NCBI RefSeq assembly: GCF_002300555.2
Contig: NZ_NTHN02000013.1
Coordinates: 1 to 64,000 of the forward strand
Reading direction: 5' to 3'
Origin: Alloyangia mangrovi
GTDB lineage: Bacteria > Pseudomonadota > Alphaproteobacteria > Rhodobacterales > Rhodobacteraceae
DNA length: 64,000 bases
Positions 8,347 through 64,000 of the stretch are shown in pieces (position 1 is the stretch's first letter; every line of letters starts with the position of its first letter). Under the pieces are notes generated by a model. The model ran no database searches. It was not told where the DNA came from and saw only the letters and a program-made list of their open reading frames with translations. A program made the position numbers and the translations under genes.

Positions 8347-8717
8347 CGACGAAAGTCCTCGCGATCGACGATTCCCGGACGATCCGCAACCTCCTGCGCA
8401 TTTCGCTCGAAGGGGCCGGCTTCGAATTTCACTCCGCCTGCGACGGGGTCGAGGGGGTCGAGCAATTCTCCGAGGTCGAGCCGGATGTGGTGATCACCGA
8501 TATCAACATGCCCAACATGGACGGTTTCGGCGTGATCGAGACGCTGCGCAGCGGCCCAAACCGCACGACGGTGCCGATCATCGTGCTGACCACCGAAAGT
8601 GGCGCCGATCTCAAGGCCCGCGCCCGTGCCGCCGGGGCCACCGGCTGGATCGTCAAACCATTCGACGACGCATCGCTTGTTTCGGTGCTGCGCCGGCTCA
8701 CAGGACACATGGTGTAG
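8343..8717 (+). CDS. cheY: Chemotaxis response regulator CheY (first copy)
   Basis: Single-domain receiver of 124 residues that takes phosphate from CheA. The acidic pair is in VLAIDDSRT, the phosphoacceptor Asp is in ITDINMPNMDG, the switch Thr is in LTTES and the conserved Lys is in VKPFD, so all key residues are present. There is no output domain. It sits between the STAS gene (4-bp overlap) and cheA (2-bp gap). One of two cheY genes in the operon; one may bind the motor and the other act as phosphate sink, but which is which cannot be read here. Confidence 0.93.
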   Translation: MTTKVLAIDDSRTIRNLLRISLEGAGFEFHSACDGVEGVEQFSEVEPDVVITDINMPNMDGFGVIETLRSGPNRTTVPIIVLTTESGADLKARARAAGATGWIVKPFDDASLVSVLRRLTGHMV

Positions 8718-8719
8718 AG

Positions 8720-11305
8720 ATGTCGGGAAATTCGATCCGCGATACGTTTTTCGAAGAATGCGAAGAGCTGCTCGAGGCCCTGGTCGAGGGGCTCTCCTCG
8801 ATGGAGCAGGACCCCGAGGACATGGACGTGGTCAACGCCGTGTTCCGCGCCGTGCATTCGATCAAGGGCGGCGCCGGAGCCTTCGCCCTCGACCGGCTGG
8901 TGAGCTTTGCCCACACCTTCGAGACGGTGATGGACAAGGTGCGCAGCCAGGAGCTGAAGGTCAACGCCGAGTTGATGCACCTCTTCCACCGCTCCGGCGA
9001 CCAGCTTGCCGACCTCGTGGAAGCGGCGCGCGACGAGCGCGAGCCGAACGCCGAATCCGAGGCCGCCATCCTCAAGGAACTCGACGGCTATCTCGGCGAG
9101 GCGGACAAGGACGACAGCTTCAGCTTCGACGCCCTCACGCTGGACTTTGATGCGGCCCCGGCGGACCTCGGCGGCGCGGGCGATGACGGCGACGAGGAAG
9201 GCTCCCTGCGCCGCTTCCACATCCGCTTCAAGCCCAGCCCCGCGCTCTATGCCAACGGGCACGAGCCGCTCCTGCTTTTCGACGCACTCGCCGAACTTGG
9301 CGAACTGCGGGTGTTGGCGGACCTCTCGGCGCTCCCCGAGTTCGACGCCTTCGACCCCAATGACGCGGTCTTGTCCTGGACGCTCCAACTCGAGACCCCG
9401 GAACCCGAGACCGTGCTGCACGAGATCTTCGAATTCGTCGAGTCGCTCTGCGAGCTCGACATCCGCGAGGACGACGGCGCGGCGGAGCCCGCGCTCACCG
9501 ACCCGGACCCCGATCTTCCCGGCCTCGCGCCCCCGCCCCCGCCGCTCGGCCTCGACAGCCCGAGCTCTGCCCTGGAGCCCGCCGACGCCCGCGGCGATCC
9601 CCAGCGCGGCGAGGCGCGCGGCCCGCGGCCCACCCTGCGCGTCGATCTCGAACGGGTCGACCGGCTGATCAACACGGTGGGCGAGTTGATCATCAACCAG
9701 GCGATGATCTCGCAGCGGATCGAGGAACTGGAACTGCCCGCGGTCGCCCATCTCACCAATGAACTCGAGGCCTACAAGCTGCTTGCCCGCGACATTCAGG
9801 AGGGCGTCATGGCGATCCGCGCCCAGCCGGTCAAGCCGCTCTTCCAGCGCATGTCTCGCATCGTCCGCGAGGCCGCGGAAGCCACCGGAAAGAAGGCGCG
9901 GCTGGTCACCATCGGCGACTCGACCGAAGTCGACAAGACGGTGATCGAACGCCTGGCCGATCCGCTCACCCACATGGTGCGCAACGCGGTCGATCACGGA
10001 CTGGAAAAATCCGATATCCGCGCCACTGCCGGCAAGGAGGCGATCGGCACCATCCGCCTGTCTGCGTCGCACCGCTCCGGCAGCGTCTTCATCGAGATCG
10101 GCGACGACGGCGCCGGGCTGAACAGGGCGCGTATCCTCGAAAAGGCGATCGAGAAAGGACTGGTCCTTCCCGAAGCCGAACTGTCGGAATCCGAGATCGA
10201 CAACCTGCTGTTCCTGCCTGGGTTCTCCACGGCGAGCGAGGTGTCCAATCTATCGGGCCGCGGGGTCGGCATGGATGTGGTCAAGAACGCGGTTTCCGCC
10301 CTCGGCGGGCGGGTTTCCATCGCCTCCACCCCCGGCGCCGGCACCACCTTCACCATCGTGCTGCCTCTGACGCTTGCGGTGATGGACGGCTTCGTCATCT
10401 CGGTCGCGGATCAGACCATGGTGATTCCCATCGCGTCGATCATCGAAACGATCCGTCCCAGCCAGCGCGACCTGCACGCGGTCGGCACCAAGGGCGTGGT
10501 GATCCTCGTGCGCGGCGCCTACGTCCCGGTCGTCGATGTCGCCTTCAACCTCGGCCTCTCCCCCGCGCGAAAGGAGGCGGGAGACGGCGTTCTGTTGTTG
10601 GTGAGCACGGAAAGCCAGGGGCTCACGGCATTGCGGGTCGAGGCGATCCACGACCAGCGACAGGTGGTGATCAAGAGTCTCGAGAGCAACTACGCCGCCA
10701 TTCCCGGCGTATCCGCGGCAACGATCCTCGGCGACGGCAAGATCGCCCTGATCCTCGACCCCGAGGAGGTGGTGAAACTGCAGCCCGCCGCCCCTTATTT
10801 CCCTGCCGTAACCCCCCCCCGAAACTGGAGCTTCGCCATGCTTGACGCCGACGAGGGACAGACCGAAACGCAGTTCGAATTCATCACCTTCTCGGCGGGG
10901 AACCAGAGTTTCTGCCTCGAGATCATGCAAATCCGCGAGATCCGCCGCTGGACGCCGGTGACCAAGCTGCCGCATACGCCCGACGATGTGCTGGGGGTGA
11001 TGAACCTGCGCGGCGCGGTGATCCCGATCTTCGACCTCTCCGCGCGCTTCGGCCTCGGCGAGACGGCGGATAACGAGCGCAACGTGGTGATCGTCGCGGC
11101 CGCCGGCGGCACCACCATCGGACTCCTGGTGGAATCCGTTTCCGAGATCCTCTCGGTCGCGAAATCCTCGATCCAGGAAACTCCCGACATGAAATCCGAC
11201 GCCGCGCGCCAAGCCATCCTCGGGGTGATCTCGGTCGGCGAATCCATGGTGCGCGTGGTCAATCTCGACGCGGTGCCCGACCAGGAAGGCGGAGCGGCCG
11301 CATGA
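8720..11305 (+). CDS. cheA: Chemotaxis histidine kinase CheA, reading in frame into CheW
   Basis: Autophosphorylating kinase of the chemoreceptor array. In order: Hpt domain with phosphoacceptor His46 in RAVHSIKGG; an acidic P2-like region (about 130-250); a Pro-rich linker; P3 dimerisation helices from about residue 305; HATPase with MVRNAVDHGLEKS, IGDDGAGLN and GRGVGMDVVKN; then a CheW-like regulatory domain to about residue 700. A normal CheA would stop here. Instead a run of nine C (10812-10820) keeps the frame open into a complete CheW (from residue 707), giving 861 residues. With ten C the frame would stop at the TGA at 10843-10845, which overlaps the cheW ATG. Confidence 0.9.
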   Translation: MSGNSIRDTFFEECEELLEALVEGLSSMEQDPEDMDVVNAVFRAVHSIKGGAGAFALDRLVSFAHTFETVMDKVRSQELKVNAELMHLFHRSGDQLADLVEAARDEREPNAESEAAILKELDGYLGEADKDDSFSFDALTLDFDAAPADLGGAGDDGDEEGSLRRFHIRFKPSPALYANGHEPLLLFDALAELGELRVLADLSALPEFDAFDPNDAVLSWTLQLETPEPETVLHEIFEFVESLCELDIREDDGAAEPALTDPDPDLPGLAPPPPPLGLDSPSSALEPADARGDPQRGEARGPRPTLRVDLERVDRLINTVGELIINQAMISQRIEELELPAVAHLTNELEAYKLLARDIQEGVMAIRAQPVKPLFQRMSRIVREAAEATGKKARLVTIGDSTEVDKTVIERLADPLTHMVRNAVDHGLEKSDIRATAGKEAIGTIRLSASHRSGSVFIEIGDDGAGLNRARILEKAIEKGLVLPEAELSESEIDNLLFLPGFSTASEVSNLSGRGVGMDVVKNAVSALGGRVSIASTPGAGTTFTIVLPLTLAVMDGFVISVADQTMVIPIASIIETIRPSQRDLHAVGTKGVVILVRGAYVPVVDVAFNLGLSPARKEAGDGVLLLVSTESQGLTALRVEAIHDQRQVVIKSLESNYAAIPGVSAATILGDGKIALILDPEEVVKLQPAAPYFPAVTPPRNWSFAMLDADEGQTETQFEFITFSAGNQSFCLEIMQIREIRRWTPVTKLPHTPDDVLGVMNLRGAVIPIFDLSARFGLGETADNERNVVIVAAAGGTTIGLLVESVSEILSVAKSSIQETPDMKSDAARQAILGVISVGESMVRVVNLDAVPDQEGGAAA
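10838..11305 (+). CDS. cheW: Chemotaxis coupling protein CheW (in frame with upstream cheA)
   Basis: Adaptor linking chemoreceptors to CheA. The 155-residue length from ATG 10838 is that of a free-standing CheW, and the domain is complete: FCLEIMQIREIRRWTPVTKL, GVMNLRGAVIPIFDL and GLLVESVSEIL are family hallmarks. A GGAG at 10827-10830 lies 7 nt before the ATG, a normal ribosome-binding site, so a separate CheW could be made even if the fused frame is real. The next gene, cheR, overlaps the stop by ATGA. Confidence 0.8.
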   Translation: MLDADEGQTETQFEFITFSAGNQSFCLEIMQIREIRRWTPVTKLPHTPDDVLGVMNLRGAVIPIFDLSARFGLGETADNERNVVIVAAAGGTTIGLLVESVSEILSVAKSSIQETPDMKSDAARQAILGVISVGESMVRVVNLDAVPDQEGGAAA

Positions 11306-49635: not shown

Positions 49636-50394
49636 CTATTCGGCGATGAAGCGTTTCATCACGACCGCTTCCTGGTCCTCCATCATCCGCCGCGCCATCA
49701 GCATGTGATCGCGCATGATCCCGCGTGCCGCCTCGGCATCGCCTGCGCGCAAGGCTGCGATGAGCTTCAACTGATACGCGCGCCCACGTTTCCAGAGTTC
49801 CTCGTTGGGTTGGGAGTAGAGCTTCTTGTAGACGGTCAGGTCGGTGAGGATCCGCGCCATGAAACCGATGAAGAAGCTCAGCAGCGCGTTGTCGGAGAAT
49901 TCCGCAAGACAGGCGTGGAAGCGCAGCGAGGCGATATGCTGTGCGCGCTCCTCCTCGGCATCGGCGGCGGGATGGGCATAGTCCGCCATGATCGCCTCGA
50001 GCCGCGCCAGTTGCTCGGCGTCCAGCTTGCCCGCGAGCGCGGCGGCGACCTCGGGTTCGAGCGCCACGCGCAGCTGGTAGATGTCGTCGATCGAGACATT
50101 GCGGAAGTAGAAGTAATTGGCCAGCAGCGCGCGTGCCCGGTCAGTGCTGACCTCGCCGACGAAACTGCCGCCGCCGGGGCCGGTCTTGGTGACCACCAAC
50201 CCCTGTGCCTGCAGCAGCCGCATGGCCTCGCGGATGGTGCCCTTGGACATGCCGAAATGCGCGATCATCTCGGCTTCGCCGGGGAGCCGGTCGCCGGGCA
50301 TCAGACCCTTTTCGACCACCCAGTCCTTGATCGCTTCGGCCACCCGCACCGGGCGGGAGCGGCGGGTGGTCCTGCCTCTTTCTACGTCGCTCAT
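49636..50394 (-). CDS. GntR/FCD-family transcriptional regulator
   Basis: 252-residue regulator: N-terminal winged HTH (about residues 15-75, MIAHFGMSKGTIREAMRLLQ) and C-terminal all-helical FCD ligand domain, FadR subfamily. It ends 2 bp from the convergent DUF1028 gene. It probably controls the DUF1028 gene and the peptide importer through the two TCATGATAAA sites 0.7 kb away. Ligand unknown. Confidence 0.9.
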   Translation of the reverse strand: MSDVERGRTTRRSRPVRVAEAIKDWVVEKGLMPGDRLPGEAEMIAHFGMSKGTIREAMRLLQAQGLVVTKTGPGGGSFVGEVSTDRARALLANYFYFRNVSIDDIYQLRVALEPEVAAALAGKLDAEQLARLEAIMADYAHPAADAEEERAQHIASLRFHACLAEFSDNALLSFFIGFMARILTDLTVYKKLYSQPNEELWKRGRAYQLKLIAALRAGDAEAARGIMRDHMLMARRMMEDQEAVVMKRFIAE

Positions 50395-50547: not shown

Positions 50548-52032
50548 TCAGGAGGCCCGCAGCCGATAGCGCCGCAGCGCCGGCTTGAGGTAGGGCCAGA
50601 CGATGCTCAGCACTGCCGCGGCCAGCAGCGCCGCCGAGATCGGCCGGGTGAAGAAGGCCCATGCCCCGTCCGCCGAGTAGGTGAAGCCCTTGCGCAGGTT
50701 CGACTCGAGCATCGGCCCGAGGATGAACGACAGCAGGAACGGGCTCACCGGCAGCCGCACCATGTCCATCACGATCCCCAGCGCCGCGAAACCAAGCAGG
50801 AAGAGGAAGATGTAGCTGCCGCCCACGTTGACGAAGACGCCAACGAAGCTCAGCACCACGATCGGCGGATAGAGGTAGTGGTAGGGCACCTTGAGGATCG
50901 CCGGGAAGAGCCGCATGCCGAAGAACTGCATCAACAGCACCAGCACCGCCGAGAGCAGCGCCGTTCCGAAGACCGCGTAGACGATCTCGGGGTTGTTGGT
51001 GAAAAGCAGCGGACCGGGCTGCACGCCGTGAATCATCAGCCCGCCGAGCAGGATCGCCGTGGTGCCGTCACCGGGAATCCCCAGCGCGATCATCGGGATC
51101 AGCGAGCCGCCGACGCTGGCGTTGTTGGAGGTCTCGGAGGCGAATACCCCGTCGATGCAACCCTTGCCGAATTTCTCGGGATGCTTCGAGGCGCTCTTGG
51201 CCTGCGCGTAGGCGACCATGTTCGACAGCGCTGCGCCCATGCCCGGCAGGAAGCCGATCCAGATGCCGATGCCGAAGGAGCGGATGATGTTCCACAGGTT
51301 GTCGCGGTACTCGCGCAGGCTCACGCCGAAGCCCGAGATGCGCCCCGCGTCGACCGTCGGCAAGTCCTGCGTGCCTTTGGCGAAATCCATGACGATCTGC
51401 TTGAGCGCGAAGAGCCCCAGCATCATGGCGATGAGATCGAAGCCGCTTGAGAGGTACATGTTGCCGAAGGCAAAGCGCGCGGTGCCGTCGATCGGCGCGA
51501 AGCCGACGCAGGCGAAGAGCAACCCGAGCGCGGCCGAGGCCATGCCCTTGCCGACGTTCTCGCGCGAGAGCGAGGCGACAAGCGCGATGGCGCAGAAACC
51601 GAGCGAGAAATATTCCCATGGCCCCAGTTTCAGCGCCAGATCGGCGAGGACGGGGCTCGCCACGGCGGCGATCAGGATCGAGAAGAAGGTGCCGATGAAG
51701 CTCGCGGTGATCGCCGCGCCGAGCGCCTTCACCGCCTCGCCGTTGCGGGTCATCGGATAGCCGTCGAAACAGGTGGCTATGGCCGAGGGCGAGCCGGGGA
51801 TTCCCAGCAGGATCGATCCGATCATCGCGCCGGAGACGCCGCCGATCCAGATCGACACCAGCATGGCAAGCCCGGTGCCGGGGTCCATGCCGAAGGTGAC
51901 AGGCAGCAGCAGCGCCACGCCAAGGCCCCCGGAGAGACCCGGGATCGCGCCGAGGATGACACCGAGGATCGCGGCGCCGAGGATGATCAGGAAGGTGAGC
52001 GGTTCGAAGAGGTGCAGGAATGAGTCGATCAT
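50548..52032 (-). CDS. Tripartite tricarboxylate transporter large permease TctA
   Basis: Large membrane subunit of a TTT-family secondary importer, 494 residues, about 11-12 helices. The hallmark glycine-rich motifs GAIPGLSGGLGVALLLP (near the N-terminus), LLGIPGSPSAIATCFDGYPM and LGIPGDGTTAILLGGLMIHG are intact. Start 52032 (MIDSFLHLFEPLTF) is where TctA proteins begin. Seven bp downstream of tctB. Confidence 0.93.
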   Translation of the reverse strand: MIDSFLHLFEPLTFLIILGAAILGVILGAIPGLSGGLGVALLLPVTFGMDPGTGLAMLVSIWIGGVSGAMIGSILLGIPGSPSAIATCFDGYPMTRNGEAVKALGAAITASFIGTFFSILIAAVASPVLADLALKLGPWEYFSLGFCAIALVASLSRENVGKGMASAALGLLFACVGFAPIDGTARFAFGNMYLSSGFDLIAMMLGLFALKQIVMDFAKGTQDLPTVDAGRISGFGVSLREYRDNLWNIIRSFGIGIWIGFLPGMGAALSNMVAYAQAKSASKHPEKFGKGCIDGVFASETSNNASVGGSLIPMIALGIPGDGTTAILLGGLMIHGVQPGPLLFTNNPEIVYAVFGTALLSAVLVLLMQFFGMRLFPAILKVPYHYLYPPIVVLSFVGVFVNVGGSYIFLFLLGFAALGIVMDMVRLPVSPFLLSFILGPMLESNLRKGFTYSADGAWAFFTRPISAALLAAAVLSIVWPYLKPALRRYRLRAS

Positions 52033-52039
52033 GGCGGCC

Positions 52040-52501
52040 TCAGAAGATCGAGGCTTCGGGCAGGTAAGAGCCGAGCCCAAGCGTGAAGAGAAGGTAGACG
52101 GCACCGGTGGCGGCAAGGCTCAGCACGACCCCGCGCCAGAGCACCCGCCGTTTCGGTCCGGCGATCAGCCAGTAGAAAGCGAAGAGGAGCAGCGGCGTTA
52201 CCGCGTAGAAGCCGAAAAGCTTCATCGCCAACGCGTAGAGCGCCAGCAGCGCGAAGAAGAGGCCGCCCCGAAGAAGTTGCGGTCGGTCGACGGGGATGGT
52301 CTCCTCGGCGATCTCGCTGCGCCCGGCGCGCAGGAAGATGGCGATGCCCGACAGGATCAGCACCGCCGCGCCGAAATAGGGAAAGAGCCGCGGCCCCGGG
52401 TCATCGGTAAAGGACGTGTAGGTGATCTGGCTGGTCATCCCGGCCACGATCAGGCCAAGCCCGATCAGCACGAGGCTGGTGATGCGATCCGTGCGTTGCA
52501 T
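52040..52501 (-). CDS. Tripartite tricarboxylate transporter small membrane protein TctB
   Basis: Small four-helix membrane subunit of 153 residues, poorly conserved in sequence as usual for TctB. It starts MQRTDRITSLVLIGLGLIVA and has DPGPRLFPYFGAAVLILSGI, a recurrent TctB segment. Lies between the tctC and tctA genes, in the standard CBA order. Works with TctA in the inner membrane. Confidence 0.88.
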   Translation of the reverse strand: MQRTDRITSLVLIGLGLIVAGMTSQITYTSFTDDPGPRLFPYFGAAVLILSGIAIFLRAGRSEIAEETIPVDRPQLLRGGLFFALLALYALAMKLFGFYAVTPLLLFAFYWLIAGPKRRVLWRGVVLSLAATGAVYLLFTLGLGSYLPEASIF

Positions 52502-52559
52502 CTGGGTTCTCTCTCCTCCCTTATGGTGGCCGGCCCCGGGCCGGGGCCGGCCTGCCGGG

Positions 52560-53516
52560 TCACTTGCGGCCGAGGCCGAGTTCCTGCGCCAGCGTGCCGA
52601 TCTTCTCGTCTTCGGCGGCGATCAGCGCCTGCGCTTCGTCGACGTCATAGTAGCGCACCTTGCTCGACATCTTGTCGAGCTGCTCGCGCACCGCGTCATC
52701 TTCGGACATGCCCTTCACCGCCGCGTTGATCTCGGCGACCAGTGCCGGGTCCATGCCTGCGGGCCCCCAGAGCACCAGCGGCGCGACCCAGGTGGCGTTA
52801 ACCCCCTGCTCGAGGGCCGGCACGAAGTCGGGATACTTGGGATCGGCCTCGGCGTCGATCATCGCCAGCACCTTGAGCTTGCCGGCCTCGACGTATTGCG
52901 CCGCGGCGCCCGCGCCCATGTTGCCGATGTCGATATGCCCGCCCTGCAGCGCAGCGACCTTGTCGACCTCGGACGACGCCTCGACCAGTTTGAACTCCAC
53001 ATCCTCGGCGTTCATGATCTGGCCCGCGATGAAATGCGAGGTGCCGCCGAGCGCAACGCCGAAGGTGTACTCCCCGGGATGCGCGCGAGCGTCCTCGACG
53101 AAGGCCTTCATGTCGGACCAGGGCGCGTCGGGCGCCACCGCGTAGACCTGCGGCGGGTAGGTCTGGCCGATGGCGATGGTGGTGAACTCCGAAAGCGGAT
53201 GGTCGTAGCGCCCGGTGTGGTAGTTCACCAAGAGCCCGGTATGGGTGAAAATCAGCGTCTGCCCGTCGGGCTTGGCATTGCGCACGGTCTCGAAGGCGAC
53301 GGTGCCTCCGCCGGCGGGCTGGTTCACCACCACCACCGGCTTGCCGATCTGCGCTTGCAGGTAGTCGGCAAAGACTCGGCCCATGACGTCCGAGCCGCCA
53401 CCGGCCTTGGCCGGAATCAGCAGTTGCACCGGCCCTTTCGGCCAGTCGCCGGCAAGCGCGGCGGTGCCGATGGCAAGCCCGAGGGTCGCGGCGGCAAGTG
53501 TCTTCAGTATGTTCAT
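52560..53516 (-). CDS. Tripartite tricarboxylate transporter substrate-binding protein TctC (first)
   Basis: Periplasmic receptor of 318 residues with a signal peptide (MNILKTLAAATLGLAIGTAALA). GPVQLLIPAKAGGGSDVMGR and VVVVNQPAGGGTVAFETVRN are TctC/Bug hallmarks. The start at 53516 follows GGGAGGAGAAAA. Belongs to the tctCBA operon. The ligand is probably a carboxylate, but Bug proteins vary widely. Confidence 0.9.
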   Translation of the reverse strand: MNILKTLAAATLGLAIGTAALAGDWPKGPVQLLIPAKAGGGSDVMGRVFADYLQAQIGKPVVVVNQPAGGGTVAFETVRNAKPDGQTLIFTHTGLLVNYHTGRYDHPLSEFTTIAIGQTYPPQVYAVAPDAPWSDMKAFVEDARAHPGEYTFGVALGGTSHFIAGQIMNAEDVEFKLVEASSEVDKVAALQGGHIDIGNMGAGAAAQYVEAGKLKVLAMIDAEADPKYPDFVPALEQGVNATWVAPLVLWGPAGMDPALVAEINAAVKGMSEDDAVREQLDKMSSKVRYYDVDEAQALIAAEDEKIGTLAQELGLGRK

Positions 53517-53547
53517 TTTTCTCCTCCCTTTGAAAACGGTCACGATC

Positions 53548-55621: not shown

Positions 55622-56602
55622 ATGCCTGGAGAGATCGATACCCACGCGCTGGTGCAGCGGCTGATGGCCCGCGGCAAGTTTCGCCACATGCAGGCGCTGA
55701 TCAGGCTGTGCGACCTGCGCAGCATGGGCCGCGCCGCCGAGGCGATGGGGATCACCCAGCCGGGCATGTCGCAACTGGTGTCGGAGCTCGAGAAGCTTGT
55801 CGGCCTGCCGCTCTTCCTGCGCCATTCGCGCGGCGTCGACGCGACCGAGCTGGCCCGCGATCTGGAACTGGTGGCGCGGCGCATCGTCACCGCGGTCGAG
55901 GAAAGCGCCGAGACCATCGTGCTGCGCCGCGACTACGATGCGACCCTCGTGCGGGTGGCCACCACCGTCGCCGCCGCCGGGGGGCTGCTGCATGATCTCC
56001 TGCCCGAGTTCGTGCACCGGCACCGCAACGTGCAGGTGCAGCTCAGCGAGGTCATGGGCATGGGCCAGGAAGCGGCGCTGGCCAGCGGCGAGATCGACCT
56101 GCTGTGCTGCCGCGCCCCCGAGGTGTTGCCCGACGGATGGTCCTTCGTGCCCTGCCGGGGCGACGCCATGGTGGTGATCGCCGCCACCACCCACCCGCTC
56201 GCGCACAAGGCGCAGGTCACCAGCGAGGAGCTCGCGCAGGCGCTCTGGCTGCCCAACCACATCTCGACGGTGGCGCGGCACGAGTTCGAGCGGCTGGCCC
56301 GCGAGCACGGCTTCGAGAACGCACCGCAGGCGCGCGTGGTGTCGCGCCAGATGGCCCTCTCGTGGATGATGCTGCGCGAGGGCACGATGGTCACCATGAT
56401 GCCGCGCAGCGTCGCGCTGCCCTGGATCGTCACCGGCCAGATCGCCGTGCTGCGGACAGCTATCGACGCGCCGCTGCCGCCGCTGGGTCTCGTCTGGGAT
56501 CCGGCGCGGGCGCAGCGCGCCACCCGCCTCTTCGTCGATTTCATCACCACTCAGAGCCCGTTGCAGACGCCCGGGCAGGACACGGACAGGACAACCAAAT
56601 GA
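55622..56602 (+). CDS. LysR-family transcriptional regulator
   Basis: 326-residue regulator. HTH around residues 20-80 (CDLRSMGRAAEAMGITQPGM then SQLVSELEKLVGLPLFLRHS) and a C-terminal co-inducer domain. Divergent from the tct/esterase operon and likely its activator. The stop overlaps the DUF3237 start by ATGA, so regulator and that gene are co-translated. Confidence 0.92.
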   Translation: MPGEIDTHALVQRLMARGKFRHMQALIRLCDLRSMGRAAEAMGITQPGMSQLVSELEKLVGLPLFLRHSRGVDATELARDLELVARRIVTAVEESAETIVLRRDYDATLVRVATTVAAAGGLLHDLLPEFVHRHRNVQVQLSEVMGMGQEAALASGEIDLLCCRAPEVLPDGWSFVPCRGDAMVVIAATTHPLAHKAQVTSEELAQALWLPNHISTVARHEFERLAREHGFENAPQARVVSRQMALSWMMLREGTMVTMMPRSVALPWIVTGQIAVLRTAIDAPLPPLGLVWDPARAQRATRLFVDFITTQSPLQTPGQDTDRTTK

Positions 56603-57087
56603 CCGACAGTGACGCGCATTTCGACCGGGTGCCCCCCGCGGTGCCCGCAGCCCATCTTGTCTGGGAAGCGCTGGTCGATGTCGCCCCGCGCGAGGACCTC
56701 GGGGCCGGACCGGCCGGCCACCGCTTCATCGTGCCGATCACCGGCGGCAGCTTCCGCGGCGTGGCGGGCTACGAGGGATTCCGCGGCACGGTGCTGCCCG
56801 GCGGTGCAGACCGCCAGCTGGTCCGGCCCGACGGCTGCAAGGAACTCGACGCGCTCTACGAGATGAAGCTGGAGGACGGCGGCATCATCACCGTGCGCAA
56901 CTCCGTGGTGATCGACGAGACCCGAGAGGGCCCGCGCTATGCCATGTCGCGCATCACCCTGACAGTGCCGCAGGGACCCTGGCAGGGGCTGAACAAACGT
57001 CTGTTCATCGGCACGCTGCAGAGCGCCCGGCCCGAGCGCGAGGCGGTGATCATCCGCGGCTGGTGCGTGGACAGCGCCCCGGCCTGA
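56599..57087 (+). CDS. DUF3237 family protein
   Basis: 162-residue soluble protein of the DUF3237 beta-barrel family: RFIVPITGGSFRGVAGYEGF then GTVLPGGADRQLVRPDG, and the later NSVVIDETREGPRYAM. Function unproven; members occur beside catabolic genes for aromatic or alicyclic acids. Coupled to LysR, so probably part of the same catabolic module as the esterase and TctC proteins. Confidence 0.8.
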   Translation: MTDSDAHFDRVPPAVPAAHLVWEALVDVAPREDLGAGPAGHRFIVPITGGSFRGVAGYEGFRGTVLPGGADRQLVRPDGCKELDALYEMKLEDGGIITVRNSVVIDETREGPRYAMSRITLTVPQGPWQGLNKRLFIGTLQSARPEREAVIIRGWCVDSAPA

Positions 57088-57156: not shown

Positions 57157-58080
57157 TCACTCGATGGTCAGCCCCTTGCGGCGCTGGGTCCCAGGCTCCT
57201 CGATGACCGGCTCGCGGCCGCCGCGGAGGATCGAGTTGCCCTCGTAGAGCGTGCGCTGGTCGATGGCGGGCGGCGACAGCCAATCGCTCTCCTTCATCTG
57301 CCCGCTCTGGCCATAGGCGGCGAGCGCGTTGCCGTAGCAGACCGCGCTCACCACCGCTTCGGAGACGCCGCTCTGCAGCGCCAGCTGCGCGGTCTTGGCC
57401 ACCCCGAGGCAATCCGAGATGCCCCAGTCGCAAGCGCTGTCGACGATGATCCGCTCGGATCCGTACTGCTTGAGCAGCTCGACCATCCGCGCGTTGCCCA
57501 TCTTGGTCGAGGGGTAGATCGAGAAACCCGCCCAATAGCCGCGGTCGAGCACCTCGCCGACGGTCTCCTCGTTGTTGTGGTCGATCACCACCATCGAGGG
57601 ATCGAGCCCCATCTCCTCGCAGACATCCATCGACAGGCTGGTGCCCTGCTTCTTGTCGCGGTGCGGCGTGTGGACCATGACCGGCAGGCCGAGCTCCTTG
57701 GCCAGCGTCAGCTGCAGGCGGAAATACTTGTCCTCGAGCGCGGTCTGCTCGTCGTAGCCGATCTCGCCGATGGCGACGACGCCCTCCTTGAGGGCGAAGC
57801 GCGGCAGCCATTCCATGACGCCCTCGGCCAGCTCCTCGTTGTTGGCCTCCTTCGAATTGAGCCCGATGGTGCAGTAGTGTCGGATGCCGAACTGCCCGGC
57901 GCGGAAGCGCTCCCAGCCGACGATGGTCGACAGGTAGTCGACGTAGGTGCCCACGAAGGTGCGCGGCTGGCCGAGCCAGAAGGCGGGCTCGATCAGCGCC
58001 ACCACGCCGGCGGCGGCCATGGCCTCGTAATCGTCGGTGGTGCGCGAGATCATATGCGCGTGGGGATCAATCAGCATCAT
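57157..58080 (-). CDS. TatD-related metal-dependent hydrolase, EboB-like
   Basis: 307-residue TIM-barrel hydrolase. The metal ligands are visible in order: DPHAHM, Glu in GEIGYDEQT, His in MVHTPHRD, His in VIDHNNEE and Asp in VDSACDWG. Family members act on DNA or small cyclic compounds; ebo-cluster members have no assigned reaction. Overlaps EboA by ATGA. The presence of EboA, EboC, EboD and EboE homologues next to it identifies it as EboB. Confidence 0.82.
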   Translation of the reverse strand: MMLIDPHAHMISRTTDDYEAMAAAGVVALIEPAFWLGQPRTFVGTYVDYLSTIVGWERFRAGQFGIRHYCTIGLNSKEANNEELAEGVMEWLPRFALKEGVVAIGEIGYDEQTALEDKYFRLQLTLAKELGLPVMVHTPHRDKKQGTSLSMDVCEEMGLDPSMVVIDHNNEETVGEVLDRGYWAGFSIYPSTKMGNARMVELLKQYGSERIIVDSACDWGISDCLGVAKTAQLALQSGVSEAVVSAVCYGNALAAYGQSGQMKESDWLSPPAIDQRTLYEGNSILRGGREPVIEEPGTQRRKGLTIE

Positions 58081-58820
58081 GACACAAACTCCTCGATAAC
58101 ACGTCCCTCGGCCCGCGCCCGATCAAGCTGGGCCTGGATTTCCGGGGTTTCCGCAAAGGGGCCGACCAGCGGCCAGAGCTCTTCCATCACCGGCCGCCCG
58201 GCGGCCCAGCGTTCGCGTGCGTATTGCACGAGGATGCGCGCCAGCTCGGGGTTGGCGCGGTCCTTGAGGCCGGAAATCGGCCCCAGCGCAGCGCCGATGA
58301 ACAGCGCCTTGAGGATCATGTGGTTCCAGCGGTGCTCGTCGAAATGGTCGCGCGGATAGGGGTTGTTGTGGGCGATGGCTTCGAACACCGGCTTGAGGTT
58401 CGAGCGCAGCCCCTCGCCCACCTCGAAGTGCAGCGTTTCGGGCTGCGGATAGAGCGGCAGACCGCGGTAGAGCGCGATCATTTCGGCGGCATCCGCGGTG
58501 CGGCGCAAGTCCTTGAAGGTCTCGGCAAAGGGGCGCTCACCGCTGTAGGTGAGCAGCCCCAGCACCCGCGCGGCGCCGTCGAGGCTCCAGTCGCCGGGCT
58601 GCCAGCCGGGGCGCGCGGCATCGGCCTTGGCCAGATCCTCTGGGCCGAGGTCAAGGTCGGCCTTGCCGAGCCGCCGCGGCGCGAAGCCGAGAAAGAGGTG
58701 CAGGTCGCGCTCCGTCGCCCCTGGGGCGGCGAGCGTTGCGAGCTGTTCCTCGAACCAGGGCCTTTCGGCCCCGGCGCGGTCCCCTATCCATTCCTGCAAA
58801 AGATCTTTTGGACTTGTCAT
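58077..58820 (-). CDS. EboA-domain protein
   Basis: 247-residue soluble protein of the EboA family, known only from ebo clusters. LTYSGERPFAETFKDLRRTA and NHMILKALFIGAALGPISGL are typical, with YPRDHFDEHRWNH in between. Biochemical role unknown. Start 58820 follows GGGAGAGAGTTTG; the in-frame Met at 58835 overlaps that site. First gene of its operon, divergent from the phosphatase-fold gene. Confidence 0.82.
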   Translation of the reverse strand: MTSPKDLLQEWIGDRAGAERPWFEEQLATLAAPGATERDLHLFLGFAPRRLGKADLDLGPEDLAKADAARPGWQPGDWSLDGAARVLGLLTYSGERPFAETFKDLRRTADAAEMIALYRGLPLYPQPETLHFEVGEGLRSNLKPVFEAIAHNNPYPRDHFDEHRWNHMILKALFIGAALGPISGLKDRANPELARILVQYARERWAAGRPVMEELWPLVGPFAETPEIQAQLDRARAEGRVIEEFVS

Positions 58821-58917
58821 CAAACTCTCTCCCAAATGGTCAATGAAACACTGGACGGGCGGAGGGGACGCGCGTCATAGTCGGCAAGTATTTTGTTGCT
58901 GGATATTTTTTGATCTC

Positions 58918-60303
58918 ATGACACCGACTCTCGTTATTCTTGTCGTCGGCCTGACACCGAAGCTTGTCGGCCAGTTCACTCCAAACATTGCCGCCCTTGC
59001 CGCCCGCGGCGCCCTGCGCCCGCTGGAGACGGTCACTCCGGCGGTCACCTGCACGGTGCAGGCCACTCTGGCGACCGGCCTGCCGCCCTCGGGGCATGGG
59101 GCCGTGGCCAATGGCTGGTACTTCCGCGATCTCAAGGAGGTGCTGCTCTGGCGGCAGCCCAACTCGCTTCTGGAGGGCGAGAAGATCTGGGATGCCGGCA
59201 AGGCGCGGGACGCGTCCTTCACCTGCGCCAAGATGTTCTGGTGGTACAACATGTACTCGACCGCCGACTACTCGGCGACGCCGCGGCCGATGTACCCGGC
59301 CGACGGGCGCAAGATCCCCGACCACTACGCGCATCCGCCCGAGCTGCACGACGAGCTCGACGCCAAGCTGGGGCGCTTTCCGCTCTTCACCTTCTGGGGG
59401 CCGACGGCGAGCATCAACTCCTCGGCGTGGATCACCGATGCGACGCTGCACGTGATGGAGACGCGGCAGCCGACGCTGACGCTGACCTACCTGCCGCATC
59501 TCGACTACGACCTGCAGAAGTTCGGCCCCGATCTGCAGCACCCCGAGGTGCAGCAGTCGCTGCGCGACATCGACGCGCTGGTCGGCAAGCTGGTTGCCGC
59601 CGCCGATGCCGAGGGGCGCCGGGTGCTGGTGGTCTCGGAATACGGCATCACCCCGGTCACCGACGCCATCCACATCAACCGCGCGCTGCGCGAGGCCGGG
59701 CTGATCGCGGTGCGCCCCGAGGAGCACGGGCGCGAGATCCTCGACGCCGGGGCGTCGGCGGCCTTTGCCATGTCCGACCACCAGCTCGCGCATGTCTACG
59801 TGAATGACCTCTCGCGGTTGTCCGAGGTGAAGGCGCTGGTCGAGGGGCTGGACGGCGTGGAAGCGGTCTGGGACGAGGAGGGCAAGCGCGCCAACGGCCT
59901 CGACCATCCCCGCTCGGGCGAGCTGGTGGCGATCAGCAAGCCCGACCGCTGGTTCAGCTACTATTACTGGCTCGACGAGGCCAAGGCGCCCGATTTCGCC
60001 CCCACCGTCGATATCCACCGCAAGCCCGGCTACGATCCCGTCGAGCTTTTCCTCGACCCGGACCTGCGCTCTCCCAAGCTGGCGGCGGGCTGGAAGCTGG
60101 CCAAGCGCAAGCTGGGCTTCCGGCAGATGCTCGACCTGATCTCGCCCTCGCGGACGGACCTCGTGAGGGGCAGCCACGGGCGGCTCACCGACGATCCCGG
60201 CGACGGGCCGCTGGTGATCTCCTCCGAGGCAGGATTGCTGCCAGAGGGGCCGGTGCGGGCGGTTGACTTCAAGGCGCTGACGCTGAGCCATGTCTTCGAC
60301 TAG
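58918..60303 (+). CDS. Alkaline-phosphatase-superfamily protein of ebo cluster with altered metal site
   Basis: 461-residue protein with the phosphodiesterase/ENPP fold: TPNIAALAARGALRPLETVT, the Thr nucleophile region TPAVTCTVQATLATGLPPSG, then GHGAVANGWYF. Canonical metal ligands are changed: the first Asp (usually in DGL) is Val in LVVGLTP, the usual SDHG is SEYG, and the D..GH motif is DYDLQKFG. It may bind rather than hydrolyse, or use a different metal site. The stop overlaps that of the convergent EboC gene by 4 bp. Ribosome-binding site weak. Confidence 0.78.
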   Translation: MTPTLVILVVGLTPKLVGQFTPNIAALAARGALRPLETVTPAVTCTVQATLATGLPPSGHGAVANGWYFRDLKEVLLWRQPNSLLEGEKIWDAGKARDASFTCAKMFWWYNMYSTADYSATPRPMYPADGRKIPDHYAHPPELHDELDAKLGRFPLFTFWGPTASINSSAWITDATLHVMETRQPTLTLTYLPHLDYDLQKFGPDLQHPEVQQSLRDIDALVGKLVAAADAEGRRVLVVSEYGITPVTDAIHINRALREAGLIAVRPEEHGREILDAGASAAFAMSDHQLAHVYVNDLSRLSEVKALVEGLDGVEAVWDEEGKRANGLDHPRSGELVAISKPDRWFSYYYWLDEAKAPDFAPTVDIHRKPGYDPVELFLDPDLRSPKLAAGWKLAKRKLGFRQMLDLISPSRTDLVRGSHGRLTDDPGDGPLVISSEAGLLPEGPVRAVDFKALTLSHVFD

Positions 60304-61157
60304 GTCCCCGCAATCCGGCGCTGCAGCACCCGCGTGAGGGCAAACCCGGCGACTGCCAGCAGCGCCGGGAGCCAGCCGCCATGCACCCCGGCGATCAGCG
60401 CGGCGTCATAGAGAGAGATCGCGGCGATCAGCAGGGTGACGGCCTTCGGCACGTCGCCCTTTGCCCGGCGGAAGAGGAAGCGCAGCGCAAACCCAGTGGC
60501 AACGAGGAACCCCAGCGCGATCAGCAGCGCCAGCGGCTTGCCCCAGCCCGTCACCAGCACCAGCACCGCGGGGAGGGCCAGCACCGCCAGCGGCCAGGCC
60601 CGGTCCAGCCGGTCATAGGCCTCCTGCTTGGCGGCATAAGTGAGGCCCACAACATAGGCCATGAGCCCAAGCGCGCCCCAGATCGCCACGCCCGGAAAGG
60701 CACCGGTGGCGGCGAAGGCGGCCATCGCATAGCAGAAGAACCGCGTCACGCCCATGATCACCGGCGCCAGCGCGGTGCGCTTGTGCAGCCAGTCATAGAG
60801 GAAGATGCTGAGGGTCAGCAGCAGCGCCGAGACCTGCGCCAGCCCGCCAAGCGGCAGGGTCAGCAAGAGGCCGACCCCGAGCATGACGAAGCCGCCGAGG
60901 AAGACCGCGCGCTGCGAGATCTCTCCTCTCGGGATCGGCCGGTCCGCCTTTTGCGCCCGGTCGATCTCGGCGTCGAAGGCGTCGTTGAGCCACATGCCGC
61001 CCACGTAGAAGAGCGTCAGCGCCAGCGCGCTCAGCAGGATGGGCACAAGCGCAGAGCCGGGGGCGGCGGAAAGCGCCAGCAGCGCCCCCGCCATGGCATT
61101 GGTCCAGACCGTCGGCAGGTTCGACACCCGCCCCAGCTTGAAGGCGGTGCCGATCAT
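60300..61157 (-). CDS. UbiA-like prenyltransferase, EboC
   Basis: 285-residue membrane prenyltransferase, about nine helices. Both Asp-rich motifs are present: NDAFDAEID (with KADRPIPRG after it) and YDRLD. UbiA enzymes transfer an isoprenyl or polyprenyl chain; in ebo clusters the acceptor is unknown. Start 61157 (MIGTAFKLGRVSNLPTVWTN) overlaps the EboE stop by ATGA. Confidence 0.85.
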   Translation of the reverse strand: MIGTAFKLGRVSNLPTVWTNAMAGALLALSAAPGSALVPILLSALALTLFYVGGMWLNDAFDAEIDRAQKADRPIPRGEISQRAVFLGGFVMLGVGLLLTLPLGGLAQVSALLLTLSIFLYDWLHKRTALAPVIMGVTRFFCYAMAAFAATGAFPGVAIWGALGLMAYVVGLTYAAKQEAYDRLDRAWPLAVLALPAVLVLVTGWGKPLALLIALGFLVATGFALRFLFRRAKGDVPKAVTLLIAAISLYDAALIAGVHGGWLPALLAVAGFALTRVLQRRIAGT

Positions 61158-62341
61158 TGCCCGAGGCGGTCGAGCACCCAGCCCAACTCGCGGCTGATCG
61201 CCGCGTCCACGCTCGAGGTCCGCAAGTCCGGGGGCAATACGTCCCATGTGTAGGTCTCCACTTCGAGATGCGGTGAGATCGGCTCGGCCCGGTGCAGGTC
61301 GAGGATGTCCTTGAGAAAGGCCTGGGTGCTGTCAAATAGCCCCAGCGAGCCGAGGAAGACCGGCACATGGAAATGCACCCGCCATTCCTCGCCATCCGCC
61401 TCGGCGCCGCGGGCCAGTGCCTCGGGCAGGTCGGAATAGGCGGTGATCGGCCCCTCTCCGCGACGGGCGAGCACCTGGTGCAGGTAGGTGGGCTCGGAAT
61501 AGGCGGCGAGCGCGGCGCGCACTTCGGGGCTCACCTGCGCGCGCAGGGCCGAGCTGAGCTGCAGCTTGTGGATCGGGATGCCCGCGCCCTGCAGCAGGGC
61601 GAGGCTCTGCGCCGGGTCCTCGTATTCCACCGCCGCGTGGCAGACGTCGTAGCATAGGCCGAGGTGCGCGCGCAGGGCCACTTCCGCCTCCGCGCCGTCC
61701 AGCCCGGTGAGCCCCGCGAAGCGGGCCACGGCGGAGGGGCTGTAGAGCCAGTCTTCGAAGAAGGCGACGCTGCCCGCGATGGTTTCGAGAAAGCAGAAGG
61801 GCTCGGGCTCGATCGCCAGCGCCACGGTGACGCCCGTGCGTGCCTTCACCGCCACGCAATGCGCCGCCGCCTGCAGGTAGAGCTCGGACATGGCGGGCTC
61901 GGCGCCCTCGGCGAGCGTGCGGAAGGTGCCCGGCACGGTACTGAGGCTGACCCAGTCGCCGGGCTCCGAGAGCTCTGCCATGAGGTCGGTGAGCCGGTTG
62001 GTGTAGCGCAGCCGCTCGGGGTCGCGCCAGTCGGGCTGGTAGACCTGCTCCTTGACCCGCACGCCATGGAACGGGCCGTAGGGAAAGCCGTTCATCGTCG
62101 CGGGCACGAGGTCGTTCTCGCGCAGGAAATCCTTCAGCCAGGTGCGGCGGTCCCCCTGGTCAAGCTCGTCGAGCGCGTTCGACGACAGCCGCAGTCCCAC
62201 CGCGAAGCGCTCGTCGGAGCAGAGCTGCGCCTTGACCGCCAGCAAGGGGCCGGTCAGAGCGGCGTGGCAATCTTCCCAGCTTTCGGTGGCATGGATATTG
62301 AGGCAGTAGGTCAGGGTGCCCAGCCCGTCGCCGAGCTTCAT
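61154..62341 (-). CDS. TIM-barrel sugar isomerase-like protein, EboE
   Basis: 395-residue protein of the xylose isomerase-like TIM-barrel superfamily. Begins MKLGDGLGTLTYCLNIHATE, the EboE signature; likely metal ligands lie in ALAIEPEPFCFLET, GLCYDVCHAAVEYED and HFHVPVFLG. Reaction unknown; described in other organisms only as part of the ebo set. The start overlaps the EboD stop by ATGA, so C, E and D form one operon. Confidence 0.85.
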   Translation of the reverse strand: MKLGDGLGTLTYCLNIHATESWEDCHAALTGPLLAVKAQLCSDERFAVGLRLSSNALDELDQGDRRTWLKDFLRENDLVPATMNGFPYGPFHGVRVKEQVYQPDWRDPERLRYTNRLTDLMAELSEPGDWVSLSTVPGTFRTLAEGAEPAMSELYLQAAAHCVAVKARTGVTVALAIEPEPFCFLETIAGSVAFFEDWLYSPSAVARFAGLTGLDGAEAEVALRAHLGLCYDVCHAAVEYEDPAQSLALLQGAGIPIHKLQLSSALRAQVSPEVRAALAAYSEPTYLHQVLARRGEGPITAYSDLPEALARGAEADGEEWRVHFHVPVFLGSLGLFDSTQAFLKDILDLHRAEPISPHLEVETYTWDVLPPDLRTSSVDAAISRELGWVLDRLGQ

Positions 62342-64000
62342 GCGTCCGTCTCCCGGTGGCTTGCCGCGCCGCGTGCTGCAAGCCAGACCAGCGCCTCGGC
62401 CACCAGCTCGGGCCGCATCTCGTGCACCTCGACCCCGACCCCGAGATCCGCCAACAGGGTGACGGTGAGCTCGCCGCCGAGGTGCTCGCGGAACTCCTCG
62501 AGCCCGACGAGGATCTCGAGCCGCCCGCCTTCGTCGCGCCGGCCGAGATCGTCGTGCCAGATCGGAAGGCCAAGTGCCTGCAGCAGCGCCAGGACGCGCT
62601 CTTCCATGCCCGGCGGCAGAAGCCCCGCCAGCACCGAGTAGCGCGCGTCCAGCGCAATCCCCATGGCGACCGCGTCGCCGTGGCTGACGGCATAATGGGT
62701 CAGCCCCTCGAGCTTGTGCGCCGACCAATGGCCGAAATCGAGCGGCCGGGCGGAGCCGCGCTCGAAGGGGTCGCCGCCAAGCGCAATCTGCCGCATGTGC
62801 AGCTCCGCCGAGCGGCGGATCATGTATTCCTCGGCCTCGGGCTCGAAATGCTTCAGTCGGCCCGCATTTGTCTCTAGCCAGAGGAAGAACGCCGGATCGC
62901 GGATCAACGAGACTTTCACCGCCTCGGAGAGGCCGGAACGGCGGGTCGCGGCGGGCAAGGTCTCGAGCAGGTCGAAATCGTTCAGCACCGCCCACGGCGG
63001 GGCGAAGGTGCCGGCGAAGTTCTTCGAACCCTCGAAGTTCACCGCGTTCTTCACCCCGACACCGCTGTCGTTCTGCGACAACACCGTCGTGGGCACGCGG
63101 ATGTGTCGGATCCCCCGGTGTGCCGTTGCCGTAGCCATTCCCACGGCGTCGAGCACCGCGCCGCCGCCGACAGCGAGGATATAGGAGTGCCGATCGATGC
63201 TGTGCTCGAGGATGATGCGGTAGATCTCGAAGACCGTCTCGAAGCCGGCCTTGATCCCCTCCCCTCCGGCGAGGGGGATCGGCGCGGCGACCAGATCGAC
63301 GCCCTCGACGGTGTCGCTGAAATAGGCAACGATCTCTGCGTCCAGCGTCGGGCGGTGGGCCAGCAGATCGCGGTCGACGAAGACCACGCAGCGCTGCCGG
63401 CGCGCCTCGGCCCCGGCGGCGAGCGCGTCTCGCAGTGCCGGGTTTTCCGGTGCAAAGAGACCGCGGGTGAAGGCCACGCGGTACTCGTAATTGACCGAGA
63501 AGGCCTGCGTGACGGTCAGGGAGGCGGGAGCTCCAGCCTGCTGGATCTCTTGCGGGGCGGTCTCGTCCCGGGCCGGGGTCGCCTCGACGCGCGCCTCTGT
63601 CCGGGGCAGCGCGTCCGGGGTGGCCATCGCCGTCGTCGGTGCCTTGATGCGGGCATAGAGGGACCGCCCCGCCATGCCCGCCACCGGCAACGCCAGCGCG
63701 GCGCAGAGCGCCAGAAGGAAGGAGTCGACCTCGAGCGCCAGCGCTCCCAACGAGGCATAGGCGGCGGCGATGCCGAGATTGGCCAGCGCCACAACGCCGA
63801 GGAACTTGCGCAGGGGCAGACCTGCCACTCCCGCCGCGATGGTCGAGGTCTCGGCCAGAACCGGCACCGCGCGCATCATCAGCACCGAGCCGAGCGCGAT
63901 GCGCTCGGACACCTCCGCCGACCGCGCGAGATAGTCCCTGCCGAGCAACCGGCCGAGCGCGCGGCTGCCGCCGGTCGCGCCGATCCAGTAGCCGAGAAGG
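62338..64000 (-). CDS. DedA/VTT membrane domain fused to 3-dehydroquinate synthase-like EboD (5' end outside window)
   Basis: The frame is open to base 64000, so the start lies beyond the window. The visible N-terminal part (LLGYWIGATGGSRALGRLLG, then RAVPVLAETSTIAAGVAGL and two helices) is the end of a DedA/VTT membrane domain. After a Pro/Ala/Thr-rich linker comes a complete dehydroquinate synthase fold: VGGGAVLDAVGMATATAHRG, PTTVLSQNDSGVGVKNAVNF, GLSEAVK, FGHWSAHKLE and SHGDAVAMG, the last three supplying the Zn ligands Glu, His and His. EboD members are related to sugar-phosphate cyclases rather than proven shikimate enzymes. Confidence 0.85.
   Translation of the reverse strand, partial: LLGYWIGATGGSRALGRLLGRDYLARSAEVSERIALGSVLMMRAVPVLAETSTIAAGVAGLPLRKFLGVVALANLGIAAAYASLGALALEVDSFLLALCAALALPVAGMAGRSLYARIKAPTTAMATPDALPRTEARVEATPARDETAPQEIQQAGAPASLTVTQAFSVNYEYRVAFTRGLFAPENPALRDALAAGAEARRQRCVVFVDRDLLAHRPTLDAEIVAYFSDTVEGVDLVAAPIPLAGGEGIKAGFETVFEIYRIILEHSIDRHSYILAVGGGAVLDAVGMATATAHRGIRHIRVPTTVLSQNDSGVGVKNAVNFEGSKNFAGTFAPPWAVLNDFDLLETLPAATRRSGLSEAVKVSLIRDPAFFLWLETNAGRLKHFEPEAEEYMIRRSAELHMRQIALGGDPFERGSARPLDFGHWSAHKLEGLTHYAVSHGDAVAMGIALDARYSVLAGLLPPGMEERVLALLQALGLPIWHDDLGRRDEGGRLEILVGLEEFREHLGGELTVTLLADLGVGVEVHEMRPELVAEALVWLAARGAASHRETDA

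Follow-up and report, generated by a model that had tools for sequence, protein, structure and literature searches.

The ebo operon has been described from cyanobacteria, Bacteroidota and the plastids of eustigmatophyte algae (PMC5133447, PMC6282210), and, widespread as the cluster is in many phyla and in algal plastids, its product has so far been elusive. A prenylated cyclitol was proposed as the product by Yurchenko et al. in 2016 (PMC5133447, section 3.7). In Nostoc, single deletions of eboA, eboB, eboC, eboE or eboF left the scytonemin monomer in the cytoplasm, and the idea of a lipid carrier originates in that study; eboD was not among the genes deleted there (PMC6282210). These deletions are the only in vivo localization evidence that we found and, by analogy, they suggest a role for ebo in moving a metabolite to the periplasm. 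Here, we analyzed positions 1 to 64000 of contig NZ_NTHN02000013.1 of the rhodobacterial Alloyangia mangrovi (64,000 nucleotides, referred to as the window herein), in which a sequence-only reading had reported a complete ebo-type cluster. We confirmed that the cluster is real, complete and ordinary in kind. Its variation is new and testable, and includes a VTT/DedA-type membrane domain fused to the cyclase EboD.

A complete ebo cluster with a fused EboD

Family models identified homologues of all six ebo proteins in the window (Table 1). The curated cut-offs were passed by EboE, EboD and the EboA domain, and the assignment of the products at 58077 and 61154 to EboA-type and EboE-type profiles, respectively, on which the sequence-only reading depended, therefore holds. 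The narrower EboA family NF035937 (211.6 bits vs a cut-off of 320) and the EboC equivalog NF035940 (95.3 vs 250) were not reached; NF035940 is nevertheless the best NCBIfam match of EboC, and a Streptomyces EboC, the sole other EboC protein scanned, scores 110.7 with it. The closest EboE found outside this genome, from Salipiger mangrovisoli, is 94% identical. For comparison we profiled 88 loci, made up of the EboE matches in the family and phylum genomes and the best 80 of 571 confirmed EboE matches from named genomes, minus the duplicates L009 (of L030) and L010 (of L020), plus four annotated plasmid loci; the near-identical L031 and L032 are both counted. All six genes stand together in 63 of these loci, and some of the incomplete ones are cut by contig ends. 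Taken together, the model scores and this synteny exclude chance as the source of the cluster, and the family-model scores likewise rule out mis-annotation. Extending the sequence past position 64000, as had been suggested, showed that eboD starts at 64281, so that the six genes span 57157-64281 of the contig and the cluster exceeds the window end by 281 bases.

Read from its ATG at 64281, EboD is a fusion of 647 amino acids whose N-terminal third is a VTT/DedA-type membrane domain (Pfam PF09335, 57.5 bits on the full open reading frame, cut-off 33.9). TMEM41B and VMP1 are also VTT/DedA membrane proteins. The sequence-only reading had described EboD as dehydroquinate (DHQ) synthase-like and had missed this N-terminal domain. 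The last membrane segment is followed by an Arg/Lys patch, RSLYARIK, and then by an Ala/Pro/Glu-rich linker of about 40 residues; by the positive-inside rule, the patch weakly suggests that the cyclase part faces the cytoplasm. Since the VTT/DedA family includes lipid flippases, among them the Pseudomonas DedA protein PA4029, reported as a flippase of C55-P (undecaprenyl phosphate; PMC12893004), the domain may move a lipid. No paper that brings DedA together with both dehydroquinate synthase and UbiA prenyltransferase, or with ebo, prenyltransferases and flippases, was found among open-licence papers.

The fusion recurs. Of the 88 loci, 13 have a VTT domain no more than 500 bp away from an ebo gene; it is fused to EboD in six (our own, L015, L021, L024, L164 and L013), and in seven it is encoded directly after eboB, at a distance of 62-70 bp. 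Six whole genomes, about 28.6 Mb together, gave a background of 24 VTT matches (one below the cut-off), from which a chance neighbor within 500 bp is expected in <1% of loci; because the profiled loci are related, no probability is attached to this proximity. At L164, which belongs to a Salipiger sp. CCB-MM3 plasmid with a complete sequence, the fusion is a single annotated coding sequence (8100-10001, 633 amino acids), which rules out an assembly error as its origin. The same strain has a second ebo cluster, L163, on another plasmid, and there EboD is unfused. At L026:3831-5549, a long open frame lying 3.4 kb from eboD encodes a VTT domain at its C terminus; the portion of the frame before this domain has no Pfam match and may be non-coding.

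The VTT domains of ebo loci also appear to form a subfamily. In a tree of 35 VTT proteins, the 16 that come from ebo loci, together with the G008 protein, separated from 18 others drawn from six genomes (support 86/78), and the fused and standalone types were each supported at 100/99; given the long branches and the midpoint root, the deep split is only moderately supported. The tree left out a weak 46-bit match at L060, the fragment L113 and duplicates, and represents L033 by one of its two VTTs. In genome G008, one of the four EboE-bearing genomes of the family set, no VTT adjoins the ebo cluster; its VTT lies on another contig and scores 195 bits with a profile built without it. Among 198 genomes of the family, VTT profile A3 exceeds 240 bits in the same four genomes that carry EboE, the next genome reaching 87, with at most 15 candidates scored per genome; A3 holds rows of all four positives, so that high scores are built in and the information lies only in the gap and in the absence from other genomes. 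For the phylum set, with at most seven candidates scored per genome, VTT scores above 150 bits were found in the ebo-bearing G000 and G325 and in G406, and the ebo-bearing G379 fell below the listed matches. Lastly, a search of 50 named genomes with ebo gave 12 in which a VTT scores above 140 bits and is no more than 6 kb away from ebo genes; the best of the rest reaches 95. These 50 were picked from the 80 so as to include every locus with a strong VTT match, which inflates the VTT share. Most ebo clusters examined lack a VTT, which rules it out as a universal ebo part. Judged from these comparisons, the VTT is an optional but dedicated ebo companion.

A 53-row EboD tree, which left out most of loci L043-L094 (18 were kept by name), placed the Rhodobacteraceae fusions in one clade (90/92) that includes the unfused copy on Salipiger sp. 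CCB-MM3 plasmid unnamed1. The fused EboD of L013/G325 groups with distant lineages (fork 86/88, midpoint root), yet the G325 VTT belongs to the fused-type clade. To explain this combination, fusion must have happened twice, a domain must have been exchanged, or a single ancient fusion must have been lost many times.

Cyclase replacement and conserved active-site residues

EboD does not reach the aroB equivalog (199.8 vs 305). Aligned to solved DHQ synthases, its substrate-site Lys is replaced by His249 and its Asn by Asp269 in 100 of 100 rows (numbered within the 401-residue stretch 62338..63543), and ValA, a 2-epi-5-epi-valiolone synthase (4p53), has the same Asp. The missed equivalog and the replaced Lys and Asn rule out EboD as a DHQ synthase. 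Active-site fingerprints are described as telling sedoheptulose-phosphate cyclases apart (PMC4426668). The replaced Lys and Asn positions presumably belong to them.

In actinomycetes and Gemmatirosa, an enzyme of the inositol-3-phosphate synthase family occupies the place of EboD; at L207 it matches Pfam PF01658 and PF07994. EboE lies within about 6 kb in 29 of 31 plasmid records that hold such a relative (E <= 1e-40). Conversely, 28 of 32 actinomycete EboE records contain it; of the four that do not, one has a partial hit where the record ends. Many of the strains behind these records are near-identical, and an 11.85-Mb Nonomuraea 'plasmid' resembles a chromosome. EboD was not found in the 19-22 kb examined at five loci with the relative (four actinomycete, one Gemmatimonadota), and at a sixth, a Streptomyces locus without it, only EboB, EboE and EboF are present. 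At L207, L209, L210, L213 and L211 the relative is accompanied by an extra TIM-barrel protein where EboD would be, and at L213 it is preceded by a ScyD/ScyE-family protein. That the same slot is filled by two unrelated cyclitol-forming families is our strongest evidence that the head group is a cyclitol, and it supports cyclitol formation as the probable job of EboD. The prenylated cyclitol that the sequence-only reading suggested is thus reasonable and strengthened, although not new, having been put forward in PMC5133447. We found no literature joining ebo with inositol among open-licence papers, which is no proof of novelty, and the words 'inositol' and 'DedA' are absent from the available text of the two main ebo papers (PMC5133447, PMC6282210).

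EboF belongs to the PF01663 fold family. Aligned to 2gsn, it retains the nucleophile Thr and one Asp, and lacks the canonical two-metal-site residues of type I phosphodiesterases: the Asp of the first motif is Val, the His of the second is Gln, and the Asp-His pair is Glu-Tyr. We take the replaced positions (Asp, Asp-His, His) to be the canonical two-metal ligands. V11, Q201, E242 and Y243 are conserved in 83, 85, 85 and 85 of 85 rows (the window protein counted twice; numbers are one higher than in the 461-residue protein), and the rows with the replacements include Pseudomonadota, Bacteroidota, Actinomycetota and Deinococcota. An invariant replacement points to a changed function and not to decay. 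EboF is therefore probably no ordinary phosphodiesterase, and the function given to it in databases may be wrong. The phosphatase fold noted by the sequence-only reading stands; the protein is the standard sixth member of the cluster and not an extra one, and 'hydrolase' as its plain function is doubtful.

The sites of EboB and EboC are intact. EboB retains H7, H9, E106, H137/H140, H168 and D218, conserved in 92 of 92 rows (the window protein again counted twice), which we take to be the metal ligands of the TatD type (HxH, Glu, His, His, Asp). In EboC the NDxxDxxxD motif is preserved, with N59, D60, D63 and D67 in 91 of 91 rows (numbered one higher than in the 285-residue protein), and weak matches to archaeal geranylgeranylglycerol-phosphate prenyltransferases were seen. 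EboE has E178, E180, D232, H235 and H288 in 105 of 105 rows; the earlier label 'isomerase' is doubtful for it, being a statement at the level of the fold only.

Layout, neighboring genes and distribution

The coordinates of the cluster and its flanking genes are collected in Table 1. Four-base overlaps occur at the D/E, E/C and A/B junctions, eboC and eboF are convergent with their ends meeting, and eboF and eboA diverge. A promoter scan found no match to the sigma-70 consensus in the gap between them. The reversed orientation of eboF is common among relatives in the 88-locus comparison.

Table 1. Features of the ebo cluster and its flanks in the window (bits, with family cut-offs where given)
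Feature	Position	Strand	Support and remarks
LysR-type regulator, flanking, outside cluster	55622..56602	+	PF03466/PF00126
DUF3237 gene, flanking, outside cluster	56527..57087	+	PF11578 75.1 bits
eboB, TatD-like metallo-hydrolase, 307 aa	57157..58080	-	PF01026 59.9 bits, cut-off 27
eboA, 247 aa, fold unassigned	58077..58820	-	NF035938 155.4 bits, cut-off 50; start read as ATG; 4-bp overlap with eboB
eboA-eboF divergent gap, 97 bp	58821..58917		Likely place of a promoter
eboF, type I phosphodiesterase/nucleotide pyrophosphatase fold, 461 aa	58918..60303	+	PF01663 212.8 bits, cut-off 23; presumed metal ligands replaced
eboC, UbiA-family membrane prenyltransferase, 285 aa	60300..61157	-	PF01040 70.3 bits, cut-off 34.2
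eboE, TIM-barrel protein, 395 aa	61154..62341	-	NF035939 416.6 bits, cut-off 250; 4-bp overlaps with eboC and eboD
EboD sugar-phosphate-cyclase part of fusion protein	62338..63543	-	PRK06203 540.6 bits, cut-off 333
Linker and VTT/DedA-type membrane domain, same open reading frame as EboD	63544..64000, frame on to 64281	-	PF09335; Pfam VTT match 63742-64092

Not far from the cluster, positions 50548-53543 and 49636-50394 of the window read by eye like genes for a TctABC transporter and a GntR regulator, and annotated TctABC and GntR genes also occur near ebo in Roseivivax (L165) and Ketogulonicigenium (L166). A gene past the window end reads, by eye and with no model search, as a carbamate kinase. 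Annotated genes for a resistance-nodulation-division efflux adaptor and permease stand directly upstream of eboD, on the same strand, in Roseivivax marinus (L165, 3217-7551), and genes for patatin-like phospholipases lie inside or beside the clusters at L009:9967-11244 and L164:18399-19460.

Across the 88 loci, GSDH and cytochrome c genes were found within 2 kb of ebo genes in 27 and 20 loci, respectively. A TMEM220 family gene lies within 500 bp in 21 (e.g. L018:8340-8747), that is, at every locus where its profile matched, and was also found in four of 21 added loci. An isopentenyl-diphosphate-isomerase-like Nudix gene is within 500 bp in eight; such genes lie within about 115 bp at L046, L047, L056, L060, L066, L071, L076 and L078. 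With custom profiles, a ferritin-like gene was detected in nine of 109 loci and an uncharacterized partner of about 600 residues in 10 of 109, and Pfam confirmed three of the ferritin-like genes as PF12902. The two occur in several phyla (L206:3048-6066, L208:2040-5100, L203:10846-14127, L191, the Chromobacterium loci L082/L084/L090, and L021). Judged by their families, the neighbors point to isoprenoid supply and periplasmic oxidation. Our own stretch holds none of these neighbors: the profiles of GSDH, cytochrome c, TMEM220 and the ferritin-like protein had no match in our window or the 18 kb beyond it, and no PF12902 protein was found in the whole genome.

EboE was matched in four of 198 family genomes and three of 398 phylum genomes (our own included), and is absent from the one same-genus genome of the family set. 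A match was also present in 48 plasmid records, some of which resemble giant or mislabelled replicons; cyanobacterial clusters are represented by one partial Gloeothece stretch. The patchiness of EboE within the family and the plasmid location in relatives support horizontal transfer as the likely route of the cluster. One relative, the complete cluster of Ketogulonicigenium vulgare (L166), is on a plasmid typed as conjugative. The cluster studied here is on contig 44 of 169 (97.5 kb); a RepC replication gene is present on contigs 80, 81 and 113 and not on 44, and we only infer that this copy may be plasmid-borne.

Proposed pathway, rival readings and related systems

We tentatively propose, as a reading that is possible but short of probable, that ebo makes a prenylated cyclitol lipid at the inner membrane and that the VTT part moves it outward. 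EboD would act in the cytoplasm and form a cyclitol by closing the ring of a sugar phosphate, probably sedoheptulose 7-phosphate. The metal-site proteins EboB and EboE would tailor the cyclitol and EboC, an integral membrane prenyltransferase, would add an isoprenoid chain, with EboA as a putative helper or scaffold. EboF, its superfamily metal site apparently rebuilt, may bind or act on the product in an unusual way. In the Salipiger lineage the cyclase would be tethered through the linker to the VTT/DedA-type domain, which would most likely flip or scramble the completed lipid, with or without cargo, into the leaflet that faces the periplasm; such a tether would couple synthesis and translocation.

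Several results weigh against this proposal, beyond the built-in scores of profile A3. At a threshold of 140 bits, 38 of the 50 ebo-bearing genomes searched have no ebo-type VTT, no VTT was present in 15 Bacteroidota and six further plasmid loci examined, and the second Salipiger cluster (L163) has neither a VTT nor a visible remnant. Conversely, G406 (L134) has an ebo-type VTT of 155 bits and yet no listed EboE match, if both draws are the same. The VTT domain does not reach the NCBIfam model of UptA (29.1 vs 250), and a PDB search with the VTT profile found no solved structure for it. Among the enzymes, the scanned isomerase-like gene is under both isopentenyl-diphosphate isomerase cut-offs (96.5 vs 105.8; 103.7 vs 127) and at L213 the inositol-3-phosphate synthase relative falls well short of the mycothiol INO1 equivalog (37.2 vs 638). 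No lipid-linked monomer was seen in Nostoc (PMC6282210), and relatives of EboC farnesylate a quinoline in vitro (PMC9235831).

The product might instead be no carrier at all, and be a prenylated redox cofactor or quinone-like lipid for periplasmic oxidases and quinoproteins. This is what the GSDH genes (by family name of the pyrroloquinoline quinone, PQQ, type), the cytochrome c and the PF12902-type ferritin-like genes would suggest, as would, in the Salipiger plasmid cluster with the fusion, a PQQ-dependent dehydrogenase annotated two genes downstream of eboB (TIGR03074 527.5, below the cut-off of 832.65) and a ScyD/ScyE-family protein with a multicopper oxidase near a Streptomyces cluster. 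We consider it unlikely, since these neighbors are inconstant and not found around our cluster, and since a pure periplasmic redox role leaves unexplained why the Nostoc monomer itself did not reach the periplasm. Some VTT proteins may work as ion-coupled transporters, which would suit an ordinary secreted prenylated cyclitol secondary metabolite with the VTT as its exporter or mere anchor. The enzyme set and the BE-40644 precedent (PMC5133447) agree with such a product, and the patchy distribution and plasmid location resemble those of a secondary-metabolite cluster. However, the single deletions in Nostoc led to one shared intermediate and a localization defect, and not to separate metabolites, and the recurrent pairing of one VTT subfamily with ebo suits a dedicated lipid step better than an anchor; our estimate for a secreted metabolite is similarly low.

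That EboC orthologues of Maribacter, Zobellia and Algoriphagus farnesylated 8-hydroxyquinoline-2-carboxylic acid in vitro (PMC9235831) raises the further reading that EboC prenylates an aromatic, quinoline-type acceptor, with EboD feeding an aromatic or related branch and a prenylated aromatic as product. The Pseudomonas EDB cluster yields indoles (Zhou 2022, as cited in PMC9655573), which would fit a role around aromatic metabolites without deciding the matter. The 14 acceptors tried with the EboC relatives had been selected from aromatic compounds (PMC9235831); the absence of the DHQ synthase Lys and Asn from EboD and its replacement by an inositol-3-phosphate synthase relative, which fits a cyclitol, make this reading quite improbable. 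Still less credit goes to the idea that the fusion is a neutral tether, functionless in the ebo pathway and spread by mobile plasmid segments. The VTT-free sister cluster in the same Salipiger strain and the many ebo clusters without a VTT would allow it, whereas a single VTT subfamily recurs in three arrangements: fused to EboD in two lineages that are far apart, encoded by its own gene following eboB, and unlinked in G008. Finally, the proposed prenylated cyclitol lipid admits a wider version in which ebo would be a bacterial counterpart of an archaeal lipid pathway, where a DHQ-synthase-fold enzyme (or an inositol-3-phosphate synthase relative) forms a polyol head, a UbiA enzyme adds an isoprenoid cap, and a dedicated VTT flippase, in our locus joined to the cyclase, brings the lipid across the inner membrane to act as a carrier in the export of other small molecules; we regard this version as speculative and on the whole unlikely.

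What is added here is the link between the cyclase and a flippase family, the cyclase replacement and the EboF site. The fusion is a direct physical link of ebo synthesis and, plausibly, lipid translocation, and the exchange of one cyclase for another, as seen in actinomycetes, narrows the choice of head group in favor of a cyclitol. With both, the vague annotation 'metabolite traffic' can give way to experiments that address a single protein and a single class of lipids.

Compared with known systems, the locus shares with the ebo operon of cyanobacteria, Bacteroidota and plastids (PMC5133447, PMC6282210) the presence of all six homologues, an EboE that passes its equivalog and an EboD without the DHQ synthase substrate residues; it differs in the order D-E-C-(F reversed)-A-B, in the EboD-VTT fusion and in an EboC under the NCBIfam cut-off. 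The rhodobacterial plasmid clusters of Salipiger sp. CCB-MM3, Roseivivax marinus and Ketogulonicigenium vulgare have the same order with a reversed eboF in the four regions viewed, and only the one on Salipiger plasmid unnamed2 is fused, the other EboD proteins having 390-442 amino acids. The VTT domain resembles VTT/DedA proteins such as UptA and PA4029 in its Pfam VTT_dom match above cut-off; in contrast to them, it is not UptA by model, belongs to a subfamily of its own, is joined to a cyclase and is known here from sequence alone. EboF and 2gsn have in common the fold family, the Thr and one Asp, and part at the D-to-V, H-to-Q and DH-to-EY positions. In the actinomycete cluster with an SCO3242-type prenyltransferase, relatives of EboA, EboB, EboE and EboF and a UbiA prenyltransferase are likewise together, and it is set apart by the inositol-3-phosphate synthase relative in place of EboD and by an extra xylose-isomerase-like TIM barrel.

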